A program made the position numbers and the translations under genes. This document shows, in pieces, positions 35,420 to 64,000 of a stretch of 64,000 nucleotides of DNA. The stretch comes from Elusimicrobiota bacterium (GTDB lineage Bacteria > Elusimicrobiota > Elusimicrobia > UBA1565), in contig JACPXC010000044.1 in NCBI GenBank assembly GCA_016196755.1, positions 1 through 64,000 of the forward strand. The letters run 5' to 3'. The number at the start of each line of letters is the position of its first letter. Position 1 is the first letter of the stretch. A model generated the notes under the pieces. It did not search any database. It saw only the letters and a list, made by a program, of their open reading frames with translations, and had not been told where the DNA came from.

Positions 35420-35425
35420 GCCAAT

Positions 35426-35453
35426 AGGGTAGCATAAGGCTACCAGTTGTCAA
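35426..35453 (-). promoter_or_regulatory. Promoter and operator of the zeta-type TA operon
   Basis: On the minus strand: TTGACA (35453-35448), a 16-bp spacer and TACCCT (35431-35426), then six bases to ATG 35419. An inverted repeat GGTAGC-N5-GCTACC (35428-35444) fills the spacer and overlaps the -10. This is the expected place for an antitoxin-bound operator. A leaderless antitoxin mRNA is predicted. Confidence 0.7.
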
Positions 35454-35469
35454 GGGCTCGGAGGCCGCG

Positions 35470-36087: not shown

Positions 36088-36098
36088 TCTCAGTCGGT

Positions 36099-36107
36099 AG
36101 GATAGCA
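36099..36107 (-). promoter_or_regulatory. Extended -10 for the carbonic anhydrase gene
   Basis: Minus strand TGC-TATCCT, eleven bases before ATG 36087. It gives a very short leader. Confidence 0.5.
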
Positions 36108-36108
36108 A

Positions 36109-36585
36109 GTTGGAAAATAGGGAAATCCCCCGCCATGGGGATGGAGGATTCTTCCTCCATCCTCCGCGACATCGGCCTCGGCCCCATCCTCAGTTCGTTC
36201 GGTCAGGGCGCGGTGCTGGTCGGCGCTTTGACCGCCGCTCGGGCGCTCGAGCTCATCGGCGGGCTGGCTTAGCAGCCGTCGGAGAACTTCACCTTGGAGC
36301 CGTCCCTCTCGCAGCAGCCGAGAGACAGGAACTCGCAGCGCCGCTCCTCGATCCAGCGGAGGTCGGACTCATTGACGGGTCACTTCCTTCAGCGCTGGAG
36401 GTATGGACCGACGTATGGGTCCATACTTTCCCTCGCAAAGTACGGACCGATTGATGAGTCCGTGCGCCGTTGCGCTACCCACAAAACAGACACGGCAACG
36501 GCTTGCCAACGGTTTGACAGGCACGGAAAGTCGGCATGAATATTGATTCGTCGTGGCTGAAGGGGGGTATCCCCCGGAGGCCGCC
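36109..36585. other. Degenerate intergenic region with gene fragment and hairpins
   Basis: About 480 bp without an intact recognisable gene. On the minus strand 36269-36375 reads an open fragment ending in a Cys-rich tail (RRCEFLSLGCCERDGSK) with no start codon and an upstream stop, probably the 3' end of a lost gene. A plus-strand ORF of 45 residues (36135-36272) overlaps it and is not convincing. A 9-bp inverted repeat GTATGGACC / GGTCCATAC lies at 36401-36426. GGGGG-TAT-CCCCC (36563 to 36575) forms a hairpin just before the next gene's Shine-Dalgarno. The 25-bp dispersed repeat is also inside. Confidence 0.6.
36483..36507. repeat. Dispersed 25-bp repeat, copy 2
   Basis: Identical over 25 bases to 4-28 and same orientation, ending in GGCAACGGCTTGCC. 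It is followed at 36513 by TTTGACAGG, which is also found downstream of copy 1. Located ~80 bp upstream of the DUF2339 gene within a degenerate region. Confidence 0.75.
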
Positions 36586-38655
36586 ATGGACGACATCGAA
36601 CTTCAAAGCCGGATCGCTGACATGCAAGCCGAGCTCGAGCGCCGGCGCTTCGAGGCTCGTCGCGTGACGCCGACGGCCGAAGCGCCCGCCCAGCTCCCGC
36701 CTCCGCCGCCCCTGCTTCCGGACCGGCCCTGCCCGGTCTGCCGCGTCCCGCGTCCGCCGCGCGGCCCCTGCCCCGGCTGCTCTTTCGAGAACAAGCCGCG
36801 CTCCCCGCGCCAGGACGGCATCCTAGACACCGCCGGCGCCTTCCTGGCCAGGCTGGGCGCCAACGTCAAGGAGCTCGGCTTCGAGCGCTTTCTGGCCGAG
36901 CGCCTGTTCGCCTACGTCGGGATGCTCTTGGTCGTCCTCGGCGGCGCCTTCTTCCTTAAATACGCCGCCGAGCACTCCGGCCCTTGGGGCCGCGTCGCCG
37001 TCGGCGTAGTCTCCGGTCTGGGGGTCGCCGCTTGCGGCGAGTTTTTGCGCCGCCGGCCTCGCTTCACGAACCTCAGCGTACCGGTGACGGCCGGCGGCTG
37101 GGCCCTGCTGACCTACACCGCCTACGCGGCGCATGCCGTGGAGGCCTCCAAGGTCGTCGCCGACCCGCGCCTGGGGCTCGTTCTCCTGGTCGCCGCCGCG
37201 GGGGGGATGATCGGCCACTCCCTGCTGACCGGCTCGCGCCTCATGACGGCCTTCGCCTTCGCCGCCTCGTATTTCGCGTTCGCGGCCACGGAGTTCGGTC
37301 CGCAGACCCTGGCGGTCTGCACCGTGCTGGGTCTCGCCGCGGCCTGGACCTCGCGGCGCCTGCGCAGCCCCGAGCTCGTCCCAATCGGTCTCGTCGGCTT
37401 CGCGGTCAACTATTGGCCCACGCTCCAGCAGGCTTTCGCAGGCCCGAGCGCCCCGCGCCTCCTGCTCGACCTCGGAGCGGCGGCGGCCGTCTACGGCGCG
37501 ATGGCCGTGGCGGCTCCGGACGCCGGAGAGGACGAACGCGCCGCCGCCTGGACCGACGCCTCTCTCTCCTTCGGCGCCGTCCTCTTGGGGATCACGGTCC
37601 ACGCCCAGAGCCGGTTCCTTCTGCCGGAGCTGGGTGCCGCCGCCGGTCTGACGGCGGCGGGGTTGTTCTCGGTCCTCTCCGGGCGCGCGAAGGGCGGCGC
37701 CGCGCGGACTATCCAGGGCTTCCTCGGCGCGGCCTCGGCGGCGCTGGCGGTCTGGCGCCTGCCCGGCCTGCCGGCGCAGACCTGGGGCTTCGTCCTGTCC
37801 TCTTCGGCTTTGGCGCTGAGCGGCCTGCGCCTGCGCCGCGAGAGCTTCGAGCGCTACGCCCTGGCCTTGGCCGGTCTCGGGGCACTGACATTCCTCGCCC
37901 AAGGGCCGGCGCCGGACGTCCGCCTGGCCTGTGCCCTGCCGGTCGGTCTCTTCGGGCTGGCCGCCTACGCGCTGGCAGGGCCGTCGCGCCCGACGTCGCG
38001 GGTGTGGCTCCATACCGGCCTGGCCGGGGCGGCGGCGGGGTTGTGGTGCTGGAGCCGGCTCGACCCTGCGCTTCGCCTGCCGGTCCTGGCGCTGGGTTCC
38101 CTCGGGCTCTTGTGGCTGGGCCGCGGCCGGGACGCGCTCGGCGCCGACCTCAGGGCCCAGGGCTATCTGCTGGCGGCGGCGGTCCCCGTCCAGGCCGCGC
38201 TGGTCGCCGCGCCGAGCGGTGTCTGTGCGGGCGCCGCGGCGCTGCTCCTCTTGGCGCCGCTCTCCTGGGCGCCTTGGGCCAAGGACGCCGGCGAGACCGT
38301 CGAGGAGCGCGGCGCGGCCCAAGTCTTCGCCGCGCTGTCGCTGACGCTCCTGGTCCTCTTCGCGGCTCGGACGGCGGCGGGGACCATGGTCACGCTGTGC
38401 TGGACGGCGCTGGGCGGAGTCTATCTCGCCGGCGGCCTGGCCGCGCGCCGGCCGGAACTTCGCCGGCCGGCCCTGGCGGTCCTCGGGCTGTGCGCCTGGA
38501 AGGCCTTCATGGTCGACCTGGTCTTCCTGCCTCTGCCCTATCGCGTGCTCAGCATGACGGCGCTCGGACTGCTGATGGTGCTCTGCTCCGTGGCCTATGT
38601 CCGGCTCGTCAAGGACGAGCCGCCGACGCTAGCCTTGGGCGAGGAGGGCCGCTAG
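36586..38655 (+). CDS. DUF2339 polytopic membrane protein
   Basis: A 689-residue protein. The N-terminus has a short coiled coil (ADMQAELERRRFEARR), a Pro run, and a zinc-ribbon-like CPVC...CPGC pair (about residues 50-70). It then has roughly 18-20 predicted membrane helices, beginning RLFAYVGMLLVVLGGAFFLKY, the usual DUF2339 opening. Function of the family is unknown. ATG 36586 is chosen for its CGGAGG five bases upstream; GTG 36553 is an unlikely alternative. The gene's last 27 bp overlap the convergent GT-C-like gene. Confidence 0.83.
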   Translation: MDDIELQSRIADMQAELERRRFEARRVTPTAEAPAQLPPPPPLLPDRPCPVCRVPRPPRGPCPGCSFENKPRSPRQDGILDTAGAFLARLGANVKELGFERFLAERLFAYVGMLLVVLGGAFFLKYAAEHSGPWGRVAVGVVSGLGVAACGEFLRRRPRFTNLSVPVTAGGWALLTYTAYAAHAVEASKVVADPRLGLVLLVAAAGGMIGHSLLTGSRLMTAFAFAASYFAFAATEFGPQTLAVCTVLGLAAAWTSRRLRSPELVPIGLVGFAVNYWPTLQQAFAGPSAPRLLLDLGAAAAVYGAMAVAAPDAGEDERAAAWTDASLSFGAVLLGITVHAQSRFLLPELGAAAGLTAAGLFSVLSGRAKGGAARTIQGFLGAASAALAVWRLPGLPAQTWGFVLSSSALALSGLRLRRESFERYALALAGLGALTFLAQGPAPDVRLACALPVGLFGLAAYALAGPSRPTSRVWLHTGLAGAAAGLWCWSRLDPALRLPVLALGSLGLLWLGRGRDALGADLRAQGYLLAAAVPVQAALVAAPSGVCAGAAALLLLAPLSWAPWAKDAGETVEERGAAQVFAALSLTLLVLFAARTAAGTMVTLCWTALGGVYLAGGLAARRPELRRPALAVLGLCAWKAFMVDLVFLPLPYRVLSMTALGLLMVLCSVAYVRLVKDEPPTLALGEEGR

Positions 38656-40191
38656 GGCCGCCGCGGCGGCGCCCGGGACGCGCGCGAGCTCGGCCAGCGC
38701 GGCCTCGCGCGAGACGGCCCCGGAGCGCACCTGGGCGGCGACGAAGTCGGGATCGCCCGGGTCGGCCCAGCGCAGCTCGAGGCGGGCGATCGTCTCCGCG
38801 TAGCGCGGCAGGCGGCGAAGGAAGACCTGGGCGGCATCGTCGGACCAGACCAGGGCCCAGCGCTCTTTGGGGAAGCGTCCGGCGTTGGGGGAGCGCGGCA
38901 GGCCGCCCTCGCCGGGCACCGAGACGGGCGGGAAATACGCCAGGGCGTAGTCGGCCTCCGGCTCGGCGCCGCGCGACGAGACCAGCAGGTCTTGGAAGAG
39001 GTAGCGGCCGTCCTGGAACACCGGCCGGCGGCCGCCGCTCTGCCAGGTCACGAAGCCGCCGAAGGTGTAGTCGTTGAACAGGGTCCCGCCGAGCCCTTCC
39101 CGGTCGAGGAAGGCCAGCGCCTCGCGCGGGGTGCGCTCCCAGCGCACCGGCCGGTCCCAGTGCCGGCGCTTGAGGGGCATGAGCAGCGCCACGCTCAGCG
39201 CGGCGCTTGCCAGGAGCATGGCCCCGCGCGTCCGCGGCGGGACAGAGAGGCTGCCCATGCCCGAGAACATGAAGACCGGCGCGCTCAGGCAGAACAGCGG
39301 GGCGAAGCGCGCCCCGCTCAGGCCCAGGAGGGCCAACGGACCGAGGACGGCGGTCCAGAACAGCGCCGAGCGGCGGTTGCGCAGGAGGTCGAGCGGCAGG
39401 CGGGCGGCGACGCCGACGAGGAGCAGCCAGAAGGCCGGGAAATGCCGCAGGCCCTCCGTCATCCACTCCTCGATGCCGGCCTGGGCCGGAGGGTGAAGGA
39501 CGTGCTCGAGGAAGACGCGATGCAGGCCGAGGCCGTAGGGATTGAGCAGCGAGGCCAGGGCGCAGGCGGCGGCCGTCAGCGCCAGCGCCCGGGCCGCCGG
39601 GTCGCGCGTCGAGCGCGTTTCCCAGGCCCGGCCCGCGGCGCAGAGCAGAAGGACCCCCGGCCCGAGCGGCCAGCCGCCGTGCATGTTGGCCCAGAGCGCG
39701 CTGAGCGCGGCCAGCGGCCAAAGCGGAAACCGTCCTCGGCAGCGCGCCCGCGCGGCCAGCAGGAAAAGCGGGAGGAGGACCAAGCTCACCAATTCCGGCC
39801 GGGCATGGGCGCGCAGGCGCACGGCGCTCAAGGCCAGCAGGCTCCCCAGGAGCGCCCCGGCCAGGCCGCTGTCCTCGCGGCGCGCGGCGGCGAAGGTCCC
39901 GGCCACGGCGGCGGCGCAGAGCGCGGCCTTGACGTGGACGAGAGCCTCGAAGCCCCCGAGCCGCAGGACGCCGGCCAGCAGGACCTGGGCCAGCCACTCG
40001 AAGTCGACCCAGGGCGCGCCGCGCAGGGTATGCGACCAGGCCTCGACGCGTGGGATGCCTGCCCCGGCGAGGATGTCCCGGCCCGCGGCCAGGTGCCACC
40101 AGAGGTCGGGGTCGACCAGCGCCGAGGCGCAGACCAGCGCGGCGAAGGCGGCGAGGAGCGCAGCCGGCGCGGCGGCCGAGACTCGCGTCAC
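38629..40191 (-). CDS. Polytopic membrane protein, GT-C glycosyltransferase-like
   Basis: A 520-residue protein with about ten or more helices and a soluble C-terminal ~150 residues. The first extracytoplasmic loop holds DPDLWWHLAAGRDIL and GAPWVDFEWLAQVL, resembling the acidic loop-1 motif of GT-C-fold membrane glycosyltransferases, but a specific family cannot be named. It is the last gene of a seven-gene operon; its GTG start overlaps the preceding stop by 4 bp. If it uses a lipid-linked sugar donor it could modify the operon's product; that is inference. Confidence 0.65.
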   Translation of the reverse strand: MTRVSAAAPAALLAAFAALVCASALVDPDLWWHLAAGRDILAGAGIPRVEAWSHTLRGAPWVDFEWLAQVLLAGVLRLGGFEALVHVKAALCAAAVAGTFAAARREDSGLAGALLGSLLALSAVRLRAHARPELVSLVLLPLFLLAARARCRGRFPLWPLAALSALWANMHGGWPLGPGVLLLCAAGRAWETRSTRDPAARALALTAAACALASLLNPYGLGLHRVFLEHVLHPPAQAGIEEWMTEGLRHFPAFWLLLVGVAARLPLDLLRNRRSALFWTAVLGPLALLGLSGARFAPLFCLSAPVFMFSGMGSLSVPPRTRGAMLLASAALSVALLMPLKRRHWDRPVRWERTPREALAFLDREGLGGTLFNDYTFGGFVTWQSGGRRPVFQDGRYLFQDLLVSSRGAEPEADYALAYFPPVSVPGEGGLPRSPNAGRFPKERWALVWSDDAAQVFLRRLPRYAETIARLELRWADPGDPDFVAAQVRSGAVSREAALAELARVPGAAAAALAALLAQG

Positions 40192-40892
40192 GAGAAGTCG
40201 GGGACGTCGAAGGACGTGGCGGGGGGAAGGCCGAGGTCGGCGGAGTCCTTGGGCACGTCCGAGAACGGGTCGGGCCCCGCGCGGCGGGGACGCGAGCGTC
40301 GTTCCTGCTTCGCGGGCGGCGGCGGCTTCCTGAGCTTCTCCTCGACGCGCTTGAGCTGGCTCTCGAGCTCGGCCGCCTTCTGGCCCTGCATGCTCAGGGC
40401 GGCCCGCGCCTGGTCGAGCTCCTCCTTCATGTTCAGGTAGCCGCCCACGCGGTGGCCCATGGCGCGGACCTTCTCCTCGAGCTCGGCCGCCGCGGCCACG
40501 CGGGCCGCCATGTCGCGCTTGAGCCTCTCGTAAGCCTCGCGGCGCGCGCTGAGGCGCTTCTGGGTGGCCTCGAGGGAGCGGTCGATGATTCCCATGCGCT
40601 CCTGGGCGGTGCCCAGGGCGTCGACGGCCGACCGCTCGGGGTCGGGCGGCCAGGGGCCGACCTTCGGCGGCTCGACGCCGGGCGGCGTGCGCTCGCTCTC
40701 CGGGAAGGCGGCGGAAAACTCAGCGGCGTCCGCGGCGCGGCGCCAGCATTCGGCGGGCGTGCCGAGAAGGTCTTCCTCGCAAAGCGGCAGCTCCGCATCG
40801 AAGACCGGGAGGCGGGAGACCTCCAGCGGGTCGTAAGGGCCCACGACCCTTTCGCCGGAATAGACCCAATAGCGCGGCTTAGCGGCTTGCAC
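40188..40892 (-). CDS. GYF-like N-terminal domain plus coiled coil, unknown function
   Basis: A 234-residue soluble protein. Residues ~7-50 (YWVYSGERVVGPYDPLEVSR) resemble the small GYF_2 domains that bind proline-rich peptides. Residues ~95-190 form a long coiled coil (RLSARREAYERLKRDMAARV, then LESQLKRVEEKL), and the tail is basic then acidic. No enzymatic motif. It starts at GTG 40892, 14 bp inside the upstream prenyl-synthase-like gene, and probably acts as an adaptor. Confidence 0.6.
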   Translation of the reverse strand: MQAAKPRYWVYSGERVVGPYDPLEVSRLPVFDAELPLCEEDLLGTPAECWRRAADAAEFSAAFPESERTPPGVEPPKVGPWPPDPERSAVDALGTAQERMGIIDRSLEATQKRLSARREAYERLKRDMAARVAAAAELEEKVRAMGHRVGGYLNMKEELDQARAALSMQGQKAAELESQLKRVEEKLRKPPPPAKQERRSRPRRAGPDPFSDVPKDSADLGLPPATSFDVPDFS

Positions 40893-41712
40893 AAACCTTA
40901 GGATAAGGCGCGGGGGTTACGCTTTCAAGACGTCGGGCGAAGCCCGACATCGAGCGCTCGAACAAGGCGAGGATCTCCGCTCCGCGGCGGCCGCGCAGGG
41001 CGGGCAGGGAAGCTCGGGAGGCCGCCAGCAGATCAACGGCGCGCAGACGCTCCTCGGTCGCCCAGGCGCGTACGGGGGGGGAGGCGATGAAGGCTCGGCG
41101 GTCCGTCCATGGCGAGCCGGCGGCCGCAGCGGCTAGGGCGACCAGGCGAGGGACGTTGACGAGGCCTCGGGAGAGGTCCTCGTCCAAGTCCCGCATGGTC
41201 GAGCACCAGCCGAAAGCCTCGATGAGTTCCGGGGCGTCACCCGGGCCAAGCTCCGCGCGCGCTGCCTTTAGGAGGAGGGCGAGGGACAAGCGGAAGGTGC
41301 GGCGGTGGTGGGCGCGCAGGTCCTCGGCGTCCGATAGCAGGCCTTGGAGCGCCCGCCGGCGGTCGAAGCGCATGGCGTCTAAGAGCTCGAGGACCTCCTC
41401 CCGGGCGTGCCCCAGGTCCGCCATGAAGGCCTGAGCCAAGCGGGAGAGCGTCCCCGTCCCGTATCGGCCGGCGCGGATCTCGGCCGCGGCCCTGGCGACG
41501 ACGGCGTCGGCATCCTCGGCCGAGGGGGCGTCGCCGTCGAGGAGGTCGTCGGCCAACTGGAGGAAGCAGAAGCCGGTGCGCAGGGCCCGCGAGCCGCGGG
41601 GCCAGAACAGCGCCCGCATGTAGACCAGCAGCATGACGGTGAGGTAGCGCCGGTGCCGGCGCGCGCAGCGCAGGAACTGCGCCAGGCAGAGCAGCTCGAT
41701 GCTATCGGGCAT
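40879..41712 (-). CDS. Squalene/phytoene-synthase-like prenyltransferase
   Basis: A 277-residue all-helical protein with two Asp-rich motifs at the positions seen in head-to-head prenyl synthases: LQLADDLLDGD near residue 70 and CSTMRDLDEDLSRG near residue 175, the latter matching the (N)xxRDxxED of squalene/phytoene synthases. Both motifs are intact. It would condense two prenyl diphosphates; chain length and product are unknown. The start lies 11 bp inside the end of the desaturase gene, so the two are coupled. Confidence 0.72.
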   Translation of the reverse strand: MPDSIELLCLAQFLRCARRHRRYLTVMLLVYMRALFWPRGSRALRTGFCFLQLADDLLDGDAPSAEDADAVVARAAAEIRAGRYGTGTLSRLAQAFMADLGHAREEVLELLDAMRFDRRRALQGLLSDAEDLRAHHRRTFRLSLALLLKAARAELGPGDAPELIEAFGWCSTMRDLDEDLSRGLVNVPRLVALAAAAAGSPWTDRRAFIASPPVRAWATEERLRAVDLLAASRASLPALRGRRGAEILALFERSMSGFARRLESVTPAPYPKVCASR

Positions 41713-42610
41713 CGCCCAGCGGGCGCGGCCCGCGCCACATGCTCGCGTAGACCGACAAGAACGACGGCCGCGGCCGCGAGGAGTCCACGTACTTGGGCAG
41801 GTGGATCCACGGAGTCCGAGGCCTCTGGTGGTGGGCCAGATGGTCGTGGTAGTTGAGGAAGAGGGCCTTGACCACGGGATTGACGGAGAGGTTCCACGCC
41901 CCCTCCGTGACGTCGAGCGCCGACCAAGCGTGGTCGGCGTATTGGAGCGAGCTCCAATTGACGGCGAAAGCCGCGTAGCACAGGAGCCATCCGCCGGGGC
42001 TCAGGTCCAGGACGGCGAAGACCGCGGCCTGCAACAGCCCGGTGAACAGGATCTCCAGGCGCAGCGCGGCCTCCGGGGCCTCGTCGAAGCCGCCGAGCAT
42101 GGCGTCGGCGCTCGTCTGGCCGGCCAGCGCCGAGTCGCCGCGGAGCGGGAAGCGCCGGAAGCAGCCGGGCCAGAGCAGGTAGACGACGGCCCCAAGCGGC
42201 AGAAACGCCCAATAGAGCCCGGTCAGGATGGCGTACCACTGGGCGGCCTTGAGCCAGCGCCGTTCGCCGGGGCGGTAGTAGTCGAACTGCTCGACGGCGG
42301 TCCGGTTGCGGCGGTGGTGGCCCAGGTGGAAGATCCGTTGGAACCCCAAGCCGGTCGGGATGAAGGCCGCCGCTACGCGTCCGCCCCACTCGTTGATGGA
42401 CGGCCGAGGGTGCAGGATGCCGTGGACGGATTCATGGAGGAGGGAGAATACCGTGTTGTTGACGAAGGAGAACGCCACGGCGGCGGCGATCGGCGCCGCC
42501 CAGCCGTCGGCGTGTGAGGCCGTCCACAGCAGCCCGGCGTCGGCGGAGACGGCCGCGAGCAGGAGGAGCGCGTTAAGCCGGGCGGGGACCGGGTCTTGCG
42601 CCTCGGGCAC
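41702..42610 (-). CDS. Membrane fatty-acid-desaturase/carotenoid-hydroxylase-like di-iron enzyme
   Basis: A 302-residue membrane protein with the three histidine boxes of the desaturase/hydroxylase superfamily: HESVH, HLGHH and HDHLAHH, plus several membrane helices around them. The second box lies about 30 residues after the first, as in fatty-acid desaturases and some carotenoid hydroxylases or ketolases. The substrate cannot be read; next to a prenyl synthase an isoprenoid lipid is plausible. Start is GTG 42610, overlapping the upstream stop as TAGTG; a longer open frame upstream is a shadow. Confidence 0.85.
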   Translation of the reverse strand: MPEAQDPVPARLNALLLLAAVSADAGLLWTASHADGWAAPIAAAVAFSFVNNTVFSLLHESVHGILHPRPSINEWGGRVAAAFIPTGLGFQRIFHLGHHRRNRTAVEQFDYYRPGERRWLKAAQWYAILTGLYWAFLPLGAVVYLLWPGCFRRFPLRGDSALAGQTSADAMLGGFDEAPEAALRLEILFTGLLQAAVFAVLDLSPGGWLLCYAAFAVNWSSLQYADHAWSALDVTEGAWNLSVNPVVKALFLNYHDHLAHHQRPRTPWIHLPKYVDSSRPRPSFLSVYASMWRGPRPLGDAR

Positions 42611-43185
42611 TAGGCCCTGGCGTTCCGGCGCCGACCCAGCCAGAACCCCGCGAGAAGGCCCGCCAGGCCCGCGCCGGCGGCCAGCCTGAACGCATATTTT
42701 TTTACGGCGCCGAGCACCGGGTTGTCGAAGACGCTCGTCGAATAATGGATGTTGGCGAGGAGCCATCGGCCGCTTTCTTTGACGAGCGTGCAGCTCCAGC
42801 GCCCGCCGATCTGAAACTGCGAGCCGTCGGCCAGCTTGTAGCTGTCGCGCGAGGAGCCCCAGGCCAGGCCGACGGTGCCGCCGGCGTATAACTTGGTGAG
42901 GTCGTCGACCGACATATCGACGTGGACGCTTTCGACGCGGCGCTCGGGGCCCTTCATCATCGTGTTGTAATAGTCCTTCATCGCCTGGCGGCCGCGGCGC
43001 GTGTCGCCGTTCATGGTCGTAAACAGCACGTCGGGGTGGAGGTGCTCCGCCATCGCGTCGACATCGCCGCGGTTGAGGGCCGCGGCGAAGCCGTCGCGGA
43101 CCGCGCGCAGCTCGTCATGGACGGCGGCGGGCGTCTGCGCCAGGGCGGCGGCGGCCAGGAGGGCGCACAGCGTCGTCATCGTCAT
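42610..43185 (-). CDS. SnoaL/NTF2-like protein, exported with C-terminal membrane helix
   Basis: A 191-residue protein with a signal-like N-terminus (MTMTTLCALLAAAALAQT). An NTF2/DUF4440-type cone fold follows (LRAVRDGFAAALNRGDVDAM, HPDVLFTTMNGDTRRG, and IGGRWSCTLVKESGRWLL). A single membrane helix and an Arg-rich tail end it (about 168-191). Relatives include ketosteroid isomerase-type and polyketide-cyclase-type proteins, and also many non-enzymes. It sits one base after the second Rieske gene, so a role on the same pathway product is likely. Confidence 0.75.
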   Translation of the reverse strand: MTMTTLCALLAAAALAQTPAAVHDELRAVRDGFAAALNRGDVDAMAEHLHPDVLFTTMNGDTRRGRQAMKDYYNTMMKGPERRVESVHVDMSVDDLTKLYAGGTVGLAWGSSRDSYKLADGSQFQIGGRWSCTLVKESGRWLLANIHYSTSVFDNPVLGAVKKYAFRLAAGAGLAGLLAGFWLGRRRNARA

Positions 43186-43186
43186 A

Positions 43187-44200
43187 TCAGGGTCTCCCTA
43201 CGGCTTCGGTTTGCGGGCCGCGGCGCGCCTGGGGGAGCGCGGCTGCCCAGCGGAAGAATTCGACGAGCTCGCGGTCTGCCGCTACGAGGGTCCGGGGGTC
43301 GTAGCGCGTGCCCTTGAGCGAAGCGGCCTCGTCGGCGAGGTAGGCCTGGGTCATCGTCCGACGGGCGCGCAGGCTCAGGCTGTCGACGAGAGGAGCCGCG
43401 CGGCGGGTGAAGACGAATCCATCGACGAAGGTCCCGCCGCCTTCGAGGGGACGGAGGGCCAGGATAAAGCGGGTCTTCAGACGGCCGAAGTCGCCTTCCA
43501 TGACGAAGAAGGTCCCTCCCCATACCGTGATGGACATGTCGATGAATCGGCCGGCAGCGCGCCTGAGCAGGCGGTCGTACCAGGCCCGGCCGACGACCTC
43601 GGCGCGGTAGCGGTTCCGGCGCGCGAAGGGGGCCGGGACATCTATGTCCGGGAGGCCGATCAGGCGCCTGCCGTGGACCAGCAGGAAATGCCTTTCGTCG
43701 AAGCCGTGCGCGGCGGTCATGTACCACGGACAGTCCGCCTCGAAGGAGAATGGGAGGGCCGCGTAGTCCGACGGCTGGCGCCCATCGAAGAACGGGAGGG
43801 GGAAGAGCGGGTGTTCGCCGTGGAAGAAGAATACGGTGCCGTGACGCTCCTCGGCGGGATAGGCGCGCTGACGGGCGAAGTCGGGGATCTCGGTCGAACC
43901 TGGGACGAGACGGCAGCGCCCGTCGGCGCCGTACTCCCAACCGTGGAACGGGCACTGCAGGCGGCCCGAGACCAAGGAGCCCTTCCCGAGGTCGGCGCCC
44001 ATATGGGCGCAGGAGGCTGCCATGACCGTCGGGCGCCCGTCCGGGCCGCGGAAGGCCGCCAGGCGGCGGCCCAATACGGTCTTCGAGACCGGGCGGCCGG
44101 CGAGCTCGGACGACCGGCAGAGCGGATACCAGGAGGCGGGGAAGCGCGTGAAGGCTTCGATGGGAGGAGCCTCGCTCGCCGCCAAGGCCCCGGAAGGCAT
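43187..44200 (-). CDS. Rieske non-heme iron oxygenase, KshA/VanA-like
   Basis: A 337-residue oxygenase. The N-terminal Rieske 2Fe-2S domain has CAHMGADLG and CPFHGWEYG (Cys-His and Cys-His ligands). The catalytic domain has DERHFLLVH, a D-x2-H-x4-H mononuclear iron site. Overall length resembles the 3-ketosteroid-9alpha-hydroxylase or Rieske cholesterol-desaturase branch more than benzoate dioxygenases, but this is by eye. ATG 44200 overlaps the stop of the upstream Rieske gene (TGATG). No ferredoxin reductase is encoded nearby. Confidence 0.85.
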   Translation of the reverse strand: MPSGALAASEAPPIEAFTRFPASWYPLCRSSELAGRPVSKTVLGRRLAAFRGPDGRPTVMAASCAHMGADLGKGSLVSGRLQCPFHGWEYGADGRCRLVPGSTEIPDFARQRAYPAEERHGTVFFFHGEHPLFPLPFFDGRQPSDYAALPFSFEADCPWYMTAAHGFDERHFLLVHGRRLIGLPDIDVPAPFARRNRYRAEVVGRAWYDRLLRRAAGRFIDMSITVWGGTFFVMEGDFGRLKTRFILALRPLEGGGTFVDGFVFTRRAAPLVDSLSLRARRTMTQAYLADEAASLKGTRYDPRTLVAADRELVEFFRWAAALPQARRGPQTEAVGRP

Positions 44201-45315
44201 CAAGCTTTGGCGGACTCGAGGGTCTTGGCCAGGTCGGCTGCCACCAGGCGGTGGAACAGGTGCTCGCCGGCCTCGCGGCGCACCGAGAGGCGCCCCGCGG
44301 TGTAGGAGCGCGAGCTCAGGCCCTTCTGCACCGAGACCGAGATGTCCTGGTCCTCGTGCTGGATGCGCTCGCCCAGGTCGACGCTGGCCTTGTTGCGCTC
44401 GTGCGCGGCCGGGCTGACGTCGTCGAAGTAGAAGTCGAAGACCACCTTGGTGCGGTCGTGGCCCATGGGGAGGACGAGGTTCGTGTCCATCACGCCCTCG
44501 TACCAGTTGAGCATGAAGTTCGGGTAGAGCCAGTAGTAGTAGGCGTGCTCGCCGCGGCGCAGTCGCGAGCTGTCGGCGTTGGAAGCGCTGGCCTTGAGCG
44601 GGGCCTTCTGGAGGCAGAAGCGGTCTTTGTTCTCGACGGTGTAGTTCACGTAGTCGATGACCGTGGCCAGCGACTTGTGCAGGACCGGGACGTGGTAGCC
44701 GCCGTCGAGGTAGTTGTCGACGTAGACCTTCCAATTGCACTTGAATTCGTAGACCCGGCGCTCGAAGAACTTGAAGCGGCCGACGTCGAGCGCCTTGACC
44801 TGGCGCGGCAGGTCGCCGAGGAACTCGGCCAGACTCGGGGCGGCGGGCTCGAGGCAGACGAAGACGTAGTTCTCCCAGGCCTCGACCCGCACCGGCAGGA
44901 GCCCGATCTTGGACTTGTCGAAGTCCCCGCCGCCCATGTCCGGGGCGCCTTTGAGCTTGCCGTCTAAGCCGTAGGTCCAGCCGTGATAGGGACAGCGCAT
45001 CGTCGAGCACTCGCCCTCGGGCTGGCACATGACGAGGGTGGCGTGGTGGCGGCAGACGTTGTAGAAGGCCTTGAGGCCGCCCATGTCGCGGACCACGACG
45101 ATGTGCTCGCCGGCGATCTCGGCGGTGACGTACTGGCCCTGTTTCTGGAGCTGGTCGAGCCGGGCCACGAACTGCCAGCTCGCGCCGAAGACGGTGGGGC
45201 GCTCGGCCTCGTATATCCGCGGGTCGGTGTACCAAGGACCGGGGATCGTCGAGGCCTCCTCGAGGGGCTTGGAGGGGTCGTAGAGGGCCAGCAGGGATTC
45301 CAGGTCGGATTTCAT
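44200..45315 (-). CDS. Rieske non-heme iron oxygenase, choline-monooxygenase-like
   Basis: A 371-residue ring-hydroxylating-type alpha subunit. The Rieske motif is CRHHATLV ... CPYHGWTYG. The catalytic-domain block CNWKVYVDNYLDGGYHVP with HKSL contains the D-x3-H-x4-H iron ligands; this exact type of block occurs in choline monooxygenase and related oxygenases. ATG 45315 is preferred to 45336 because it follows a -10 with nine bases spacing. First gene of the seven-gene operon running down to 38629. Its physiological substrate is unknown. Confidence 0.9.
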   Translation of the reverse strand: MKSDLESLLALYDPSKPLEEASTIPGPWYTDPRIYEAERPTVFGASWQFVARLDQLQKQGQYVTAEIAGEHIVVVRDMGGLKAFYNVCRHHATLVMCQPEGECSTMRCPYHGWTYGLDGKLKGAPDMGGGDFDKSKIGLLPVRVEAWENYVFVCLEPAAPSLAEFLGDLPRQVKALDVGRFKFFERRVYEFKCNWKVYVDNYLDGGYHVPVLHKSLATVIDYVNYTVENKDRFCLQKAPLKASASNADSSRLRRGEHAYYYWLYPNFMLNWYEGVMDTNLVLPMGHDRTKVVFDFYFDDVSPAAHERNKASVDLGERIQHEDQDISVSVQKGLSSRSYTAGRLSVRREAGEHLFHRLVAADLAKTLESAKA

Positions 45316-45324
45316 GGCCTCATT

Positions 45325-45330
45325 ATTGTA
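45325..45330 (-). promoter_or_regulatory. Putative -10 of the Rieske/isoprenoid operon
   Basis: Minus-strand TACAAT nine bases before ATG 45315. The divergent permease starts at 45346, so the whole control region is only 30 bp between start codons. Confidence 0.45.
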
Positions 45331-45345
45331 GAACATTGTCCCCGG

Positions 45346-46614
45346 ATGGCAATGTCGGCCGAAAACCGCGCGCTCACCCGCTTCGACCTCACCTGCATCG
45401 GCATCAACTCAGTCGTGGGCTCGAGCATCTTCATGTTCCCCGCGGCGCTGGCCGGCTTCCTAGGCCCGGCCTCGATCGCGGCGTTCGCGGCGGTGGGGCT
45501 ATTGATGTTCAGCGTGGGACTCTGCTTCGCCGAGGCGGCCACCCACTTCGACGAGGCCGGCGGCTCCTACCTCTACGCCCGCGAGGCCTTCGGCGACCGG
45601 GTGGGATTTGCGATCGGCTGGCTGAGTTGGTTCTCTTACCTCTTCGGCTGGGCCGCGGTCTCCAACGGCATCGCCTCCTACCTGAGCTGGTTCGACGAGA
45701 GCCTGGCGTCGCCGTGGTTCGTCAAGAGCGTGGCCGGCGTCACGATCCTGTCCTTCGGCGTCCTCAACTACCGGGGCGTCAAGCTGGGGGCCTGGGTCTC
45801 GAACTTCTTTACCGCGGCGAAGCTCGCCGCGCTCCTCGTGTTCGTGGCGGTGGGCCTTCCCAAGCTCCAAGGCGGCCTGCTGACTCCGCTCGCCCCGAAA
45901 GCCTGGTCGGGCTTCGGCCCGGCCTGCTTTCTGGCTTACTTCGCGTTTCAGGGCTTCGAGGGCATCCCCGTCCCCTCGGGCGAGGCCGCGACGCCGCGCA
46001 AGCACGTGCCGTTCGCCGTCGTGACGTCGCTGATCGTGGCCTCGGTCGTCTACATGCTCGTGCAGCTCGTCGCGGTCGGGACCAACCCAGGCCTGGCCGA
46101 GGCGAAGCGGCCGCTGGCCGACACGGCCTTCCTCATCATGGGGCCGATGGGGGCCGGCTTCATCGCCCTGGCCGCGGCCGCCTCGATGACGGGCTATACC
46201 TCGAGCGCCGCGCTGGTCTGTCCGCGCTTCCTCTCCGCGCTGGCCCACGACGGCCACGTCCCGGCCGCCCTGGGCGCGAGCCACCCGCGCTTCGCCACGC
46301 CCTACCTCTCCATCCTCGTCACGACCGGGATCGTCCTCTCCGCCGCGCTGGTCTTCGACTTCGGGCGCTTGGTCGACTTCAGCAACATCGCGGTCTGCGC
46401 CCAGTACATCACGACCTGCGCGGCGGTTCCGGTCCTGCGCCGGCGCATGAAGGCCGAGCCGGGCTCCTTCCGCCTGCCCGGCGGCCTCCTCGTCCCCGTC
46501 ATCGGCGTGCTGGCCACGCTCTGGCTGGGCGCCCAGGGCGGGGCCTCCGAGATCCTGTGGTCGGCGGCTATCCTCGCCGCCGGCTTCGTCATCCGCGCCT
46601 TGTGCCGACTTTAA
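45346..46614 (+). CDS. APC-superfamily amino acid permease
   Basis: A 422-residue transporter with about 12 helices. The first helix carries LTCIGINSVVGSSIFMFPAA, the unwound Gly-rich substrate-binding segment of the APC superfamily (G-S/V-x-I-F). FQGFEGIPVPSGEA matches the helix-6 region (normally FxGFE). Substrate is probably an amino acid or amine. ATG 45346 or 45352 starts just before the first helix. Divergent from the Rieske operon, so co-regulation is possible. It overlaps the next gene by 13 bp. Confidence 0.88.
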   Translation: MAMSAENRALTRFDLTCIGINSVVGSSIFMFPAALAGFLGPASIAAFAAVGLLMFSVGLCFAEAATHFDEAGGSYLYAREAFGDRVGFAIGWLSWFSYLFGWAAVSNGIASYLSWFDESLASPWFVKSVAGVTILSFGVLNYRGVKLGAWVSNFFTAAKLAALLVFVAVGLPKLQGGLLTPLAPKAWSGFGPACFLAYFAFQGFEGIPVPSGEAATPRKHVPFAVVTSLIVASVVYMLVQLVAVGTNPGLAEAKRPLADTAFLIMGPMGAGFIALAAAASMTGYTSSAALVCPRFLSALAHDGHVPAALGASHPRFATPYLSILVTTGIVLSAALVFDFGRLVDFSNIAVCAQYITTCAAVPVLRRRMKAEPGSFRLPGGLLVPVIGVLATLWLGAQGGASEILWSAAILAAGFVIRALCRL

Positions 46615-48338
46615 TCTACGACCGCGACTGCGGGTTTTGCCGGCGCTGGGTCGAGCGCTTCCGGGGCATCACCGGCGACCGGGTCGAGTACCTGGCCTCG
46701 GCCGATGCCGCCAAGCGTTTCCCTAATATCCCCGCCGAGGTCATGGACCGCGCCGTTGTGTTTGTCGAGTCCGACGGAACGGTCCGGGAGGGGGCGCGGG
46801 CGGTGTTCGGCGCGCTCGGCCCGCTGTGGCTGGAGGTTTACGAGCGCCTGCCGGGCTTCGCCCCGGTCTCCGAATGGTCTTACGGGCTGGTGGCGCGCAA
46901 TCGGATGTTCTTTTCGCGGGTCACGCGGCTCCTATGGGGGGAAGACCTCTCACTTCCGACCTATCACTTGGCGCGCTGGCTCTTCCTCAAGGGCATGGCG
47001 CTCTGCTACGGGATAGCCTTCGTCTCGTTCGCGGTCCAGGCCCCTGGATTGGTGGGACCGCGCGGCATCATGCCGGCGCCGGGACTCGACCCGGCGATGC
47101 TGGCCTGGGCCGGAGCGGGGCTCTCCGTGGTCTTCCTGTTCGGCCTCCTGCCGTCTCTGCTCTCGGCTCTCTTGTGGCTCATGTACCGACAGGTCTATCT
47201 CGTCGGGGGCGTGTTCCTCGGCTTTCAGTGGGACATCCTCCTGCTCGAGGCCGGGGTCTTGGCCTTTCTGCTGGCGCCATGGGGCATTCGGCCGCGCCTG
47301 GCCGACGCGCGCGCGCCGTCGACGGCCGCCCTATGGCTGGTGCGTTGGCTGTGGTTCCGGCTGGTCTTCCTCTCCGCTCTCGTCAAGCTGGCCAGCGGCG
47401 ACGCGCTGTGGAGCGGATTGACGGCGCTAAGCGTCCACTACGAGACCCAGCCGCTGCCTACCGTCGGCGGCTGGTGGGCCCATCAACTGCCCGCGGGCGC
47501 CCAGCGCTTCTCCTGCGCCGTCATGTTCTTCATCGAGCTGGTCCTGCCGCTGGCGATCTTCCTGCCGCGCCGCCCGCGCCTGGCGGCGTTCCTCGGCGTC
47601 AACCTGCTGATGCTCCTCATCGCGGCCACCGGCAACTACACGTTCTTCAACCTCCTGGCCTTCGTCCTGAGCTTGCCGCTGCTCGACGACAGCTTGCTGG
47701 GGCGTAAGGCCGCGCCGGGCCCGCGCGAGCCGCGCGCGCGCCGGGCTCTAGGCTGGGCGTTCGCGGCCTTCGTCGTGCCGGTCAGCATCGTCCAAGGCCT
47801 GACCCGGGTCTGGACGCCCGTCGCCCGGGACCCGGGGCTCCAGCGCGTGGCCGCGGCCGGCCATGCGTACCAGCTCGTCTCCGCCTACGGCCTCTTCGCC
47901 GTGATGACGCCCCGGCGCGGCGAGATCGTCGTCGAGGGCACCGTCGACGGCCGCGAGTGGAAGGCCTACGAGTTCCGCTGGAAGCCCGGCGACCCCGCGC
48001 GGCGCCCGGGGTGGGTCCAGCCGCACCAGCCGCGGCTGGATTGGCAGATGTGGTTCGCCGCGCTCTCGCCCTACCAGCACAACGGCTGGTACCTGGCGTT
48101 CCTGCAGAGGCTCCTCGAAGGCTCGCCCGAGGTTCGGGGGCTCTTGGCCAATGACCCGTTCCCGGCCGCGCCGCCCAAGGCCATCCGGTCGCTGTTCTAC
48201 GAGTATAAGTTCACCGACGCGAAGACCCGGCGCGAGACCGGGGCCTGGTGGCGGCGGGAGTTCAGAGGAATGTATGCGCCGATCCTCACGCTGATGCCCG
48301 ATGGGCGCCTTGCCGCGTTGGCACCGCCGGGCGACTAG
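46602..48338 (+). CDS. DCC thiol-oxidoreductase-like domain fused to lipase maturation factor-like membrane protein
   Basis: A 578-residue fusion. Residues ~1-110 are a DCC (YuxK-like) domain with LIYDRDCGFCRRWVERF carrying a CxxC pair. The remainder is a polytopic LMF-family protein (FLGFQWDILLLEAG, then SVHYETQPLPT) with a long soluble C-terminus (FAALSPYQHNGWYLAFLQRL). LMF1 in animals helps lipases fold in the ER; bacterial functions are unknown. Start is GTG 46602, inside the end of the permease gene, chosen because it lies directly before the DCC domain. Confidence 0.83.
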   Translation: MPTLIYDRDCGFCRRWVERFRGITGDRVEYLASADAAKRFPNIPAEVMDRAVVFVESDGTVREGARAVFGALGPLWLEVYERLPGFAPVSEWSYGLVARNRMFFSRVTRLLWGEDLSLPTYHLARWLFLKGMALCYGIAFVSFAVQAPGLVGPRGIMPAPGLDPAMLAWAGAGLSVVFLFGLLPSLLSALLWLMYRQVYLVGGVFLGFQWDILLLEAGVLAFLLAPWGIRPRLADARAPSTAALWLVRWLWFRLVFLSALVKLASGDALWSGLTALSVHYETQPLPTVGGWWAHQLPAGAQRFSCAVMFFIELVLPLAIFLPRRPRLAAFLGVNLLMLLIAATGNYTFFNLLAFVLSLPLLDDSLLGRKAAPGPREPRARRALGWAFAAFVVPVSIVQGLTRVWTPVARDPGLQRVAAAGHAYQLVSAYGLFAVMTPRRGEIVVEGTVDGREWKAYEFRWKPGDPARRPGWVQPHQPRLDWQMWFAALSPYQHNGWYLAFLQRLLEGSPEVRGLLANDPFPAAPPKAIRSLFYEYKFTDAKTRRETGAWWRREFRGMYAPILTLMPDGRLAALAPPGD

Positions 48339-56168: not shown

Positions 56169-57041
56169 ATGAAGGCCGTCCTCCTCCTCGCCGCCGGCCT
56201 CCTTCTGCCCTCGCCCGCCCGCGCCGCCGAGTCCCCGCTGCTCGAGATGAAGGCCCGCAAGGTCGTCTCCGCCGACGCCACGGAGTGGAGCCCCGAGGAG
56301 ACCGCCACGCTCAGGCGCCTGCGCCGCGCGGAGGCCTGGGGGGCCCTGCAGTACCTGCGCGACAAGACCGGCACCTTGGACGGCTCGGCGGTGGAGCTGC
56401 CCAGCGGGAAAGGCTACAAGCGCCTGCTGCTGACGGTGCGCGGCCACGACAACTGGCTGTTCATCCTCTCGCAGGAGGCGCGCGCCTATTTCGAGAGCAA
56501 GGGGGGCGAGGCCAAGTACATCTTCCAGCTCACCGACCTCGAGAAGAAGCGCTTCTTCGACGACGAGGGGATGCTCACCGACCACGGCGTGGCGACCTAC
56601 CGCCGGATCCGCCGCCGCCAGGCGGTGTACTGGATCAACACCGACGGCCGCCCCCAGGGGACCATCCGCCCGCCGCTGGCCGCCCAAGCCGTGCCGCGGC
56701 AGGCCCCGGCGCCCCCGCCGCCGCCGCCCGCGCCGCCCAAGAAGCCGGAGACCGAACCCGGAGAACTGCCGCCGGGCGCGCCGGTCGAGGGCGGCTTCGG
56801 CCAGCGCTTCCCCGCCGACGCGGCGGCGGGCGGCCTCATCGACGCCATGGTCAAGGGCGGGGCCGTCGAGATCACCGAGGAGGAGGCTAAAGCGCTGGCG
56901 GCTTCCAGCCAGATGAGCCAAGAGGATCTGCTCAAGACCAGCCTCCAGGCCGTGCCGTTCAACGGCAAGATGCGTTTCTACCTCAAGCCCGGCGACCCGC
57001 TGGCCGAGAAGCTGCTGCTGCTGCGCCAAGCCCAGCGTTGA
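56169..57041 (+). CDS. Secreted protein of unknown function
   Basis: 290 residues with a signal peptide (about 1-20, ending PARAAE). The first domain (~30-165) is mixed alpha/beta with YKRLLLTVRGHDNWLFILSQ; a Pro-rich linker with a run of prolines (~185-205) separates it from a C-terminal ~85-residue segment. No family is recognised. It follows the ECF/anti-sigma pair and could be part of its regulon. Its stop overlaps the next start (TGATG). Confidence 0.6.
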   Translation: MKAVLLLAAGLLLPSPARAAESPLLEMKARKVVSADATEWSPEETATLRRLRRAEAWGALQYLRDKTGTLDGSAVELPSGKGYKRLLLTVRGHDNWLFILSQEARAYFESKGGEAKYIFQLTDLEKKRFFDDEGMLTDHGVATYRRIRRRQAVYWINTDGRPQGTIRPPLAAQAVPRQAPAPPPPPPAPPKKPETEPGELPPGAPVEGGFGQRFPADAAAGGLIDAMVKGGAVEITEEEAKALAASSQMSQEDLLKTSLQAVPFNGKMRFYLKPGDPLAEKLLLLRQAQR

Positions 57042-57784
57042 TGGCGGGCCTGCGCGGCGAGGTGCGGGCCGTGGCCGGAACCGACGAGTCCCTGCGGCGC
57101 TCACTCCACGAGCTCTTCATCCGCCACTACGATAACGTCTCCTGGGAGGTCTTCTCCGCCGACTTCGCCGAGAAAGACTTCGTCATCCTGCTGCGGCGCG
57201 CCGCGGACGGCGCCGCGGCCGGGTTCTCCACCCAGAAGGTCCTGCGCGGCGAGCGCGGGGGGGACGAGGCGCGGATCCTTTTCTCGGGCGACACCGTCAT
57301 CGACAAGGCGGCCTGGGGCGAGCAGGAGCTGGTCAAGGCCTGGTGCCGTCTGGCCGGGGCGGTCAAGTCCCAGGAGCCCAACTCGCCGCTGCATTGGCTG
57401 CTCATCTGCAAGGGCTACCGCACCTACCTCTACCTCCCGTTGTTCTTCGACGAGTACTGGCCGCGCCGCGAGGCGCCCACGCCGCCGGAGGAGCAGGCGC
57501 TCATCGACGACTTCGGACGCTGGAAGTTCGGCCCGGCCTACAAGGACGGCCTGCTGCGCTTCGCGGCCCCCAAGGGCAACCTGACCCCCGAATTGGCCGC
57601 GGTGCCGTCCGGCCGCCGCGAGGACCCGCGGGTCAAGTTCTTCCTTGAGCGCAACCCCGGCTACGCCGCGGGCGACGAGCTGGTCTGCCTGACCGAAGTC
57701 AGCGACGGGAACATGAAGGGGTTGGCCAAGCGGCTCTACCGCGACGGCTACGCCACGGGCCTGCACGGCCTGCTGACGGGCTGA
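57041..57784 (+). CDS. Conserved-looking cytosolic protein, unknown function
   Basis: A 247-residue soluble protein. The region around 115-140 (LLICKGYRTYLYLPLFFDEYWP) and the early DVxF-like layout (HYDNVSWEVFSADFAEKDFVILL) recall GNAT-fold proteins, but no acetyl-CoA motif is clear. I have a recollection of similar hypothetical proteins with a ...KGYRTY..LP.FF..Y.PR block, without a function. ATG 57041 overlaps the preceding stop as TGATG. Confidence 0.6.
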   Translation: MAGLRGEVRAVAGTDESLRRSLHELFIRHYDNVSWEVFSADFAEKDFVILLRRAADGAAAGFSTQKVLRGERGGDEARILFSGDTVIDKAAWGEQELVKAWCRLAGAVKSQEPNSPLHWLLICKGYRTYLYLPLFFDEYWPRREAPTPPEEQALIDDFGRWKFGPAYKDGLLRFAAPKGNLTPELAAVPSGRREDPRVKFFLERNPGYAAGDELVCLTEVSDGNMKGLAKRLYRDGYATGLHGLLTG

Positions 57785-63086: not shown

Positions 63087-64000
63087 TTGTCGCTGAAGGA
63101 ATACTGGTACATCGCCGCCGAGTCGTCGGAACTGGCTTCCAAGCCCCTGGCCCGCGTCGTTCTGGGCGAACGCCTGGTCTTGTTCCGGGGCCCCGACGGC
63201 AAGCCCGCCGCCCTCGAGGACCGTTGCGCGCACCGCAACATCGCCCTTTCCGGGGGCAAGGTAGAAAACGGCACTCTGCGCTGCCGCTACCACGGCTGGC
63301 GCTACGCCCCGGCCGGCACCTGCGTAGAGGTTCCTGCCCTGGGCGAGACCAAGCTCCCGCGCCGGGCCTGCGTGCGCCCCTACCCCTGCGTCGAGAGCCA
63401 GGGCTTCGTCTGGGTCTATCCGGGCGTAGAGGCTCCGCCGCCGGCCCCGCCGGCCTTCGCCCGCCTCGGCGAGCCGGGCTGGACCACCTTCACGATGCGC
63501 AACCTCTTCGAAGGCACCGTCGAGGCCTGCATGGAGAACTTCCTCGACTGCCCGCATACGGTCTACGTCCACCGCGGCTGGTTTCGCACCAGCGACCCGC
63601 GGCCCCTCAAGGCCGTCGTGACCAGGAGCGCGGACCGGGTGGAGGCCGCTTTCGAGGACGAGCCCATCTCCGAGAGCGTGGTCTCCCGCCTGCTCTTCCC
63701 TAAGGGCCGGAGGTTGACCCACACCGACCGGTTCATCCTGCCGGCGATGAGCCGGGTCGACTATTCCTTCGGCCCGGACCGCCATTTCATCATCTCCTCC
63801 TGGTGCACGCCGGCCCAGGACGAGTCGCATACCCGGGTCTACACGGCCATCACCTACCGCTTCGGCGCTTGGGGCCCGCTGGTGCGGCTCTTCTTCGAGC
63901 CGCTCTGCCGGACCATCATCGCCCAGGACGTGGAGGTCATCGCGGCCCAGGACGCCAACATCCGGCGCTTCGGCGGCCCGCGCTTCACGCACCTCGAGAT
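63087..64000 (+). CDS. Rieske non-heme iron oxygenase, partial (runs off window)
   Basis: At least 304 residues; the 3' end is outside the window. The Rieske motif CAHRNIALSGG with CRYHGWRY (both Cys-His pairs) and the catalytic ENFLDCPHTVYVH (D-x2-H-x4-H) are complete, so it is an active-type oxygenase resembling vanillate/phenoxybenzoate-type monooxygenases. Start is probably TTG 63087 with GAGG five bases upstream; an extended -10 TGA-TACAAT ends at 63064. It is the third Rieske protein in the window and is not clustered with the other two. Confidence 0.85.
   Translation, partial: MSLKEYWYIAAESSELASKPLARVVLGERLVLFRGPDGKPAALEDRCAHRNIALSGGKVENGTLRCRYHGWRYAPAGTCVEVPALGETKLPRRACVRPYPCVESQGFVWVYPGVEAPPPAPPAFARLGEPGWTTFTMRNLFEGTVEACMENFLDCPHTVYVHRGWFRTSDPRPLKAVVTRSADRVEAAFEDEPISESVVSRLLFPKGRRLTHTDRFILPAMSRVDYSFGPDRHFIISSWCTPAQDESHTRVYTAITYRFGAWGPLVRLFFEPLCRTIIAQDVEVIAAQDANIRRFGGPRFTHLE

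Follow-up and report, generated by a model that had tools for sequence, protein, structure and literature searches.

The seven genes

The window analysed here is a stretch of 64,000 nucleotides, positions 1-64000 of contig C6 in a 4.59-Mb genome from the phylum Elusimicrobiota. On its minus strand lie seven tightly coupled open reading frames (Table 1), which encode two Rieske oxygenases (R1 and R2), a SnoaL-like protein (SN), a membrane desaturase (DES), a protein resembling squalene and phytoene synthases (SQS/PSY; gene 5, here SQS5), a GYF coiled-coil protein and a GT-C-like protein (GTC). Five genes for making and oxidising a lipid, probably of isoprenoid type, have been placed here ahead of two older, unrelated genes. 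The first four genes are joined by a 1-base overlap (TGATG, R1/R2), a 1-base gap (R2/SN) and another 1-base overlap (TAGTG, SN/DES); the remaining junctions are overlaps of 11 bases (DES/SQS5), 14 bases (SQS5/GYF) and 4 bases (GYF/GTC). GC content at third codon positions is 0.86-0.94 across all seven genes. A preliminary description of this DNA had reported the same seven reading frames, and we find its coordinates, strand and coupled junctions to be correct.

R1 matches Pfam PF00355 (1.3e-17) and PF00848 (Ring_hydroxyl_A, 9.4e-32); its nearest solved relative is carnitine monooxygenase (best PDB match 6y9c, 2.3e-38), and its CxH..CxxH motif and NWKVYVDNYLDGGYHVPVLH are intact. R2 matches PF00355 (1.4e-20), with KshA as the best PDB match (2zyl, 2.3e-20), and has intact CAH..CPFH and DERHFLLVH motifs and 50-51% identity to its homologues in loci L022 and L027. 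Alignments to carnitine monooxygenase and KshA place the CxH-CxxH cluster ligands and the 2-His-1-carboxylate site in both proteins. SN matches PF14534 (DUF4440, 4.7e-11). By a hydropathy rule, 36 of the 43 members of its family combine a hydrophobic N-terminus (export signal) with a hydrophobic stretch at the C-terminus (anchor). DES matches PF00487 (FA_desaturase, 6.8e-22), its His boxes HESVH, HLGHH and HLAHH are invariant, and its identity reaches 65-66% in loci from other phyla. The desaturase of genome G031 (L016, same order) is identical to that of L071. These matches agree with the family names first given to the four proteins. GTC has no Pfam or NCBIfam match, and the GYF protein is assigned by sequence inspection only.

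Five genes inserted before an older pair

Relatives of the GYF protein occur in 55 of the 57 related genomes and those of GTC in all 57, counting the genome itself. The two genes stand side by side in G001, G002 and G004, and within the genus the GTC homologues beside GYF are 59-63% identical. In the 96 relatives searched there is no gene 5; weak matches in G036 and G045 overlap radical-SAM genes on the opposite strand or in another frame and were rejected as chance. G001, from the same genus, has the order secG, GTC, GYF and LMF (a lipase-maturation-factor-like gene), with approximately 50 bases between GYF and LMF and without genes 1-5; GYF adjoins LMF in G003 as well. In the window GYF and LMF are separated by 5.7 kb, which contain SQS5, the desaturase, SnoaL, R2, R1 and a divergent amino-acid permease. 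By this comparison, R2-SN-DES-SQS5, together with R1 and the permease, is an insertion between the GYF-GTC pair and LMF, and the seven-gene run is two joined units, an insert (genes 1-5) and an ancestral pair (genes 6-7).

The junction itself points the same way. The region upstream of GYF in G002 (GTCTTGAAAGCGTAACCC..GCGCC.TATCCT) aligns inside the last SQS5 codons, with none of 5,000 shuffles as good, and the SQS5 protein tail encoded there is unconserved. The old GYF promoter was thus kept within SQS5, whose reading frame runs through it. The corresponding region of G001 aligns no better than shuffles, and only G002 gives a clear promoter match. A promoter scan finds two sites in 9 kb, against 0.3 in shuffles. 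Since the old promoter lies in the last SQS5 codons, the SQS5/GYF overlap is a scar of the insertion and not a sign of shared function. The coupling of all seven genes in one operon, as first proposed, is real as a physical arrangement, but at the SQS5/GYF junction, given the G001 site and the G002 promoter, it is not an evolved coupling. The further proposal that GYF and GTC belong to the pathway, and that its product is hence glycosylated, loses its footing: the two genes occur in nearly all relatives, which lack gene 5, and the site in G001 is uninterrupted. With both genes ancestral and unlinked to the inserted set, glycosylation is unsupported.

R1 looks like an addition outside the conserved set described below, because its near homologues in relatives (67% identical in G011, 48% in G006) stand without the other genes. 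Of the two Rieske oxygenases, R2 belongs to the conserved set and R1 does not. In G011 (L137, G011:C194) the lone R1 homologue directly follows an 87% homologue of the window gene at 5230-6255, which lies 38 kb from R1 in the window.

Beside the inserted set, the window carries between secG and GTC (34473-38655) a zeta-toxin-like kinase with a small partner, a carbonic-anhydrase-like gene and a DUF2339 membrane protein. Since secG and GTC are adjacent in G001, this stretch is a second indel next to the first.

Gene 5 is a divergent member of the squalene/phytoene-synthase superfamily

On its own, gene 5 gives nothing convincing in Pfam, NCBIfam, PHROGs or a phmmer search of the PDB, and a scan of genome contigs with gene 5 alone finds no relatives; its homologues were reached only via the desaturase profile. 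The alignment used below consists of gene 5 and 21 of its 22 homologues. AlphaFold2 (AF2) run on the single sequence gives a pLDDT of 39.8, and with the 22-member alignment 92.5. The resulting model has a class I all-helical fold, closest to HpnC (Z 18.7 over 246 residues, 3.7 A) and a CrtM-like enzyme (Z 18.6), followed by the carbazole prenyltransferases LvqB4 (17.7) and CqsB4 (17.1), which are Foldseek ranks 4 and 7; general terpene synthases score about 14.5. At the sequence level, 10 of the 22 members match SQS_PSY (PF00494; best 5.1e-6), a Neisseria elongata fusion of PAP2 and SQS5 passes the PF00494 cut-off (34.6 against 26 bits), and hhalign of SQS5 against the genome's own SQS set gives a probability of 93.5 (E 2e-7). 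The model and these matches indicate that gene 5 is a divergent member of the superfamily, as had been read from its sequence.

SQS/PSY-fold enzymes act on prenyl diphosphates through Asp motifs. Across the alignment QxxDDxxDGD and S..RD...D......N.P are invariant, and gene 5 has QLADDLLDGD and MRDLDEDLSRG. The preliminary description had raised loss of catalytic residues as a point that would speak against a prenyl synthase; both Asp-rich motifs are intact, with D55, D56, D59 and D61 and R174, D175 and D179 invariant in the 22 sequences. Conventional SQS/PSY genes are present in the genome on C50 (two adjacent) and on C37, and C61 carries a squalene-hopene cyclase; hopanoid synthesis therefore does not require gene 5.

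Module 1 recurs across phyla

A scan of genome contigs with the desaturase profile (A3) yields 78 loci, in 22 of which a gene-5 homologue lies beside the desaturase. These 22 further loci come from at least seven phyla, and the gene set recurs across no fewer than eight bacterial phyla, with a cultured Neisseria strain among its carriers. Many of the 22 loci are on short contigs; among them 19 have a Rieske gene, 19 a PAP2 gene and 15 a SnoaL gene. The three Rieske profiles converge, and the labels R1, R2 and RV in the locus gene strings are unreliable. Approximately 220 kb of control DNA has no SQS5, GH3, SnoaL or desaturase match. The order Rieske-SnoaL-desaturase-SQS5 is kept in many phyla, which answers the preliminary description's question about conserved synteny, and several loci encode fusions: PAP2-SQS5 in L029, L032, L041, L064, L065 and L072, desaturase-SQS5 in L045 and L050, and a triple desaturase-PAP2-SQS5 fusion in L033. 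By synteny and fusions, a prenyl-condensing-type fold, a membrane di-iron desaturase and a Rieske oxygenase do travel together, as first suggested. Genes 2-5 (R2, SnoaL, desaturase, SQS5) form a conserved module, module 1.

Distances among SQS5 proteins correlate with those among their partners (desaturase r 0.69, SnoaL 0.87, PAP2 0.71, Rieske 0.44; 0/2000 permutations as high in each case), although part of this correlation may come from shared genome ancestry. On the desaturase tree the presence of SQS5 requires 6 changes, against 19.4 for shuffled labels. Phylum labels, which are imperfect for metagenome-assembled genomes (MAGs), require 30 changes on this tree, which fits horizontal spread of the module. 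In this genome the PAP2 closest to those of SQS5 clusters sits on C35 and is the only one of that type.

Two variations accompany the module. A cytochrome P450 (family f52) replaces or joins the Rieske gene in L038, L044, L055, L073 and L094. In Neisseria elongata subsp. elongata ATCC 25295 a desaturase and a PAP2-SQS unit lie amid housekeeping genes (L065), and a separate locus has a GH3-Rieske-transmembrane-GNAT-like arrangement (L152).

A second module built around GH3

GH3 enzymes form amides between acyl acids and amino acids. A GH3 gene is on the same contig in 14 of the 22 SQS5 loci, mostly with GNAT-like proteins of 370 and 240 amino acids and with either a Rieske, transmembrane and NqrB-UnbV set or two B12-radical-SAM genes. 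Six of the other eight SQS5 carriers have GH3 elsewhere in the genome, against 1 of 14 control genomes, which brings the loci or genomes with GH3 to 20 of 22. In G341 (Neisseria elongata), G342, G344 and G347 the distant GH3 gene sits with GNAT-like and Rieske or radical-SAM genes.

In the window genome this module 2 runs from window position 63087 to C6:75975 (L014:1-11975), 18 kb from module 1 on the same contig and outside the coordinates that the preliminary description gives for the seven genes. It contains a VanA-type Rieske oxygenase, a transmembrane protein, an NqrB-UnbV fusion, a Rieske protein, GH3 (family match 1.3e-48), GNAT, AurF, B12-radical-SAM, a desaturase paralogue (34%), a further gene and a SnoaL-like protein, and it is partly conserved in G001 (L017). 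The fusion joins NqrB/RnfD to FG-GAP-ASPIC/UnbV, families that occur in enediyne clusters as well. Among loci L022-L099, the NqrB/UnbV fusion occurs in 15 and B12-radical-SAM in 42, with 2 shared, including L014. From this distribution the two look like interchangeable ways of carrying out a single step.

Table 1. Features of the window discussed in the text, with module and insertion assignments as proposed there
Feature	Position	Strand	Basis or remark
R1, Rieske oxygenase alpha subunit, first gene of the insert	44200..45315	-	alternative ATG at 45336
R2, KshA/dicamba-type Rieske oxygenase, module 1	43187..44200	-	PF00355, PDB, homologues
SN, predicted exported, C-terminally membrane-anchored SnoaL/DUF4440 protein, module 1	42610..43185	-	PF14534
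DES, membrane enzyme of the fatty-acid desaturase superfamily, GTG start, module 1	41702..42610	-	PF00487
SQS5 (gene 5), divergent squalene/phytoene-synthase-fold enzyme, module 1	40879..41712	-	alignment, AF2, fold
GYF coiled-coil protein, ancestral neighbour	40188..40892	-	55/57 related genomes, own included
Multi-transmembrane GT-C-like protein, ancestral neighbour	38629..40191	-	57/57 related genomes, own included
Ancestral GYF promoter, TTGAAA-17-TATCCT, inside last SQS5 codons	40900..40928	-	scan, G002 match
Promoter-like site before R1, TTGCCA-16-TACAAT	45325..45352	-	10/12 matches
Amino-acid permease (APC), divergent from R1	45346..46614	+	PF13520 2.2e-45; absent at G001 site
DCC1/lipase-maturation-factor-like gene (LMF), ancestral right flank of insertion	46602..48338	+	Pfam LMF1 7.9e-52
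GNAT-like protein of ~240 amino acids, family (f31) accompanying GH3 in module 2	57041..57784	+	hidden Markov model 2.7e-87
VanA-type Rieske oxygenase, start of module 2	63087..64000	+	module runs past window to C6:75975

Comparison with known systems

A close precedent is gromomycin biosynthesis in Streptomyces, where three Rieske oxygenases, PAP2 and prenyl enzymes serve one isoprenoid-amino pathway, with prenyl transfer to arginine proposed, and whose cluster was missed by cluster-finding tools (PMC12105684). It shares Rieske, PAP2 and prenyl-diphosphate chemistry with the modules described here. The gromomycin cluster has its own polyprenyl synthetase, the cyclase GroF and a P450, and its gene table and text name no SnoaL, membrane desaturase, GH3 or SQS/PSY fusion (PMC12105684). 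The window locus, unlike gromomycin, has no linked dedicated polyprenyl synthetase (the genome's two are on C61 and C52) and no linked PAP2, although PAP2 is linked in most of the homologous loci.

The carbazole enzyme NzsG establishes that a phytoene-synthase-like fold can prenylate an acceptor (PMC7466098). NzsG, CqsB4 and LvqB4 have the fold and the two Asp-rich motifs of SQS5 and use a non-prenyl acceptor, but they belong to an aromatic carbazole pathway. HpnC/HpnD and CrtM/CrtB share the SQS5 fold and motif positions, whereas SQS5 has DDxxDGD and RDLxxDxxxGLxNxP in place of the ..GRxYLP usual in those enzymes, is often fused to PAP2 and sits among oxygenases, apart from the genome's conventional SQS/PSY genes. 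The GH3-family enzyme OlsH makes N-acyl ornithine, and GH3-type formation of an N-acyl amino acid is what the OlsH/OlsI ornithine-lipid pathway has in common with module 2 (PMC12493201); that pathway is without oxygenases and SQS5, and the score of the module-2 GH3 falls far short of the OlsH cut-off. The orphan cyanobacterial CylC clusters that contain Rieske genes combine, like module 2, several Rieske oxygenases, desaturases, acyltransferases and an AurF-like di-iron enzyme; the likeness is one of description, and SQS5 goes unmentioned in the parts of the source consulted (PMC8406957).

The preliminary description knew of no pathway with this gene set, and we find no report of one in the literature searched (open-licence papers). 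The enzyme families are known, but neither their combination nor the SQS5 subfamily seems to be described in that literature, and there is a genuine possibility of a new product class.

A proposed pathway and its alternatives

The Asp-motif chemistry of the SQS/PSY fold, prenyl transfer in carbazole pathways, amidation by GH3 and OlsH, and the gromomycin precedent together point to a lipid of isoprenoid type that is oxidised and linked to an amino acid. SQS5, as a class I prenyl-diphosphate enzyme, would make or transfer an isoprenyl group. A PAP2 enzyme (from C35 here, fused to SQS5 in several species) would remove phosphate or exchange the head group, after which the membrane desaturase and R2 would oxidise the chain at the membrane and the exported, anchored SnoaL protein would act on the outer face of the membrane. 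Module 2, with GH3, two GNAT-like proteins and either a VanA-type Rieske oxygenase plus an NqrB/UnbV fusion or a B12-radical-SAM pair, would attach an amino acid or an amine to the product, as GH3 enzymes do. We consider it somewhat more probable than the opposite that modules 1 and 2 form such a two-module, horizontally spread and undescribed lipid pathway. Sequence comparison shows the insertion, the modules with their linkage and fusions, the SQS fold and that its motifs are intact; the isoprenoid substrate, the sequence of reactions and the amide nature of the product are what we infer.

Several observations weigh against this proposal. The tree and the synteny are based largely on MAGs, the SQS5 profile gives weak PDB sequence matches only, and the module-2 GH3 scores 48 against 620 bits (6e-13) with the OlsH model NF052613. 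Modules 1 and 2 are not one operon, PAP2 is unlinked to module 1 in this genome, and no prenyl-diphosphate synthase is linked to it on C6. Desaturase, GH3, GNAT and PAP2 families also occur in clusters without SQS5, so SQS5 may be an option or tailoring enzyme on a common, possibly non-isoprenoid core. Such clusters lead to an acyl alternative, in which desaturase and Rieske oxidise a fatty-acyl chain, GH3 and the GNATs make an N-acyl amino-acid lipid, as planctomycete GH3 does with ornithine (PMC12493201), and SQS5 acts on another diphosphate or in tailoring only. The desaturase does belong to the fatty-acid desaturase superfamily, but module 1 shows no acyl-carrier protein or ketosynthase, both prenyl-diphosphate motifs are invariant in SQS5, and fusions of SQS5 with PAP2 or with the desaturase connect the desaturase with a prenyl-type enzyme; we hold this alternative to be unlikely, if a serious one. 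Instead of condensing two prenyl diphosphates head to head, SQS5 might transfer a prenyl group to an acceptor such as an amine or amino acid, as the prenyltransferases NzsG and CqsB4 do (PMC7466098) and as proposed for GroH, with arginine as acceptor (PMC12105684). Carbazole prenyltransferases are among the closest folds and SQS5 clusters contain GH3/GNAT amine chemistry, yet HpnC and the CrtM-like enzyme score as high or slightly higher, which leaves the fold indecisive, and no aromatic acceptor pathway is linked; the chances seem to us tilted against this activity, though not steeply.

The remaining alternatives concern the run as first described. Oxidation of a carotenoid, squalene or sterol followed by glycosylation by GTC would be in keeping with the SQS/PSY fold, with the conventional SQS/PSY genes and squalene-hopene cyclase of the genome, and with a match of the desaturase to the carotenoid ketolase model CrtW (NF045690). 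That match, on which the carotenoid proposal depends, is far below cut-off (18.9 against 350 bits, E 7.5e-4), no carotenoid desaturase is seen in the cluster, conventional SQS/PSY genes are already elsewhere in the genome, and GTC and GYF are ancestral neighbours unlinked to the module; we regard this pathway as very improbable. A single functional operon of all seven genes, in which GYF and GTC would serve to export or cap the lipid, is to our mind more improbable still. The overlapping genes probably permit read-through, but the GYF-GTC pair occurs in relatives without gene 5, keeps its own conserved promoter, and has no homologue of either gene by profiles in any of the 78 related loci.

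Significance

Modules 1 and 2 may, as a tentative view that we would not yet back over its opposite, define a widespread new class of bacterial lipid or natural product, with an isoprenyl chain from an SQS/PSY-fold enzyme, oxidation by desaturase and Rieske enzymes, joining to an amino acid by GH3, horizontal spread, and radical-SAM and oxygenase versions of one step. The locus also warns that overlapping genes need not have a common function, as the overlap here is an insertion scar over an old promoter. What recurs in many phyla is a conserved, repeatedly transferred biosynthetic gene set with no described product in the literature searched; among its enzymes is a divergent squalene/phytoene-synthase subfamily with fusions to phosphatase and desaturase, and through GH3 the set links isoprenoid-type enzymes to amino-acid ligation. 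Since Neisseria elongata is in culture and carries a minimal unit of two genes (desaturase and PAP2-SQS), the question can be put to experiment.

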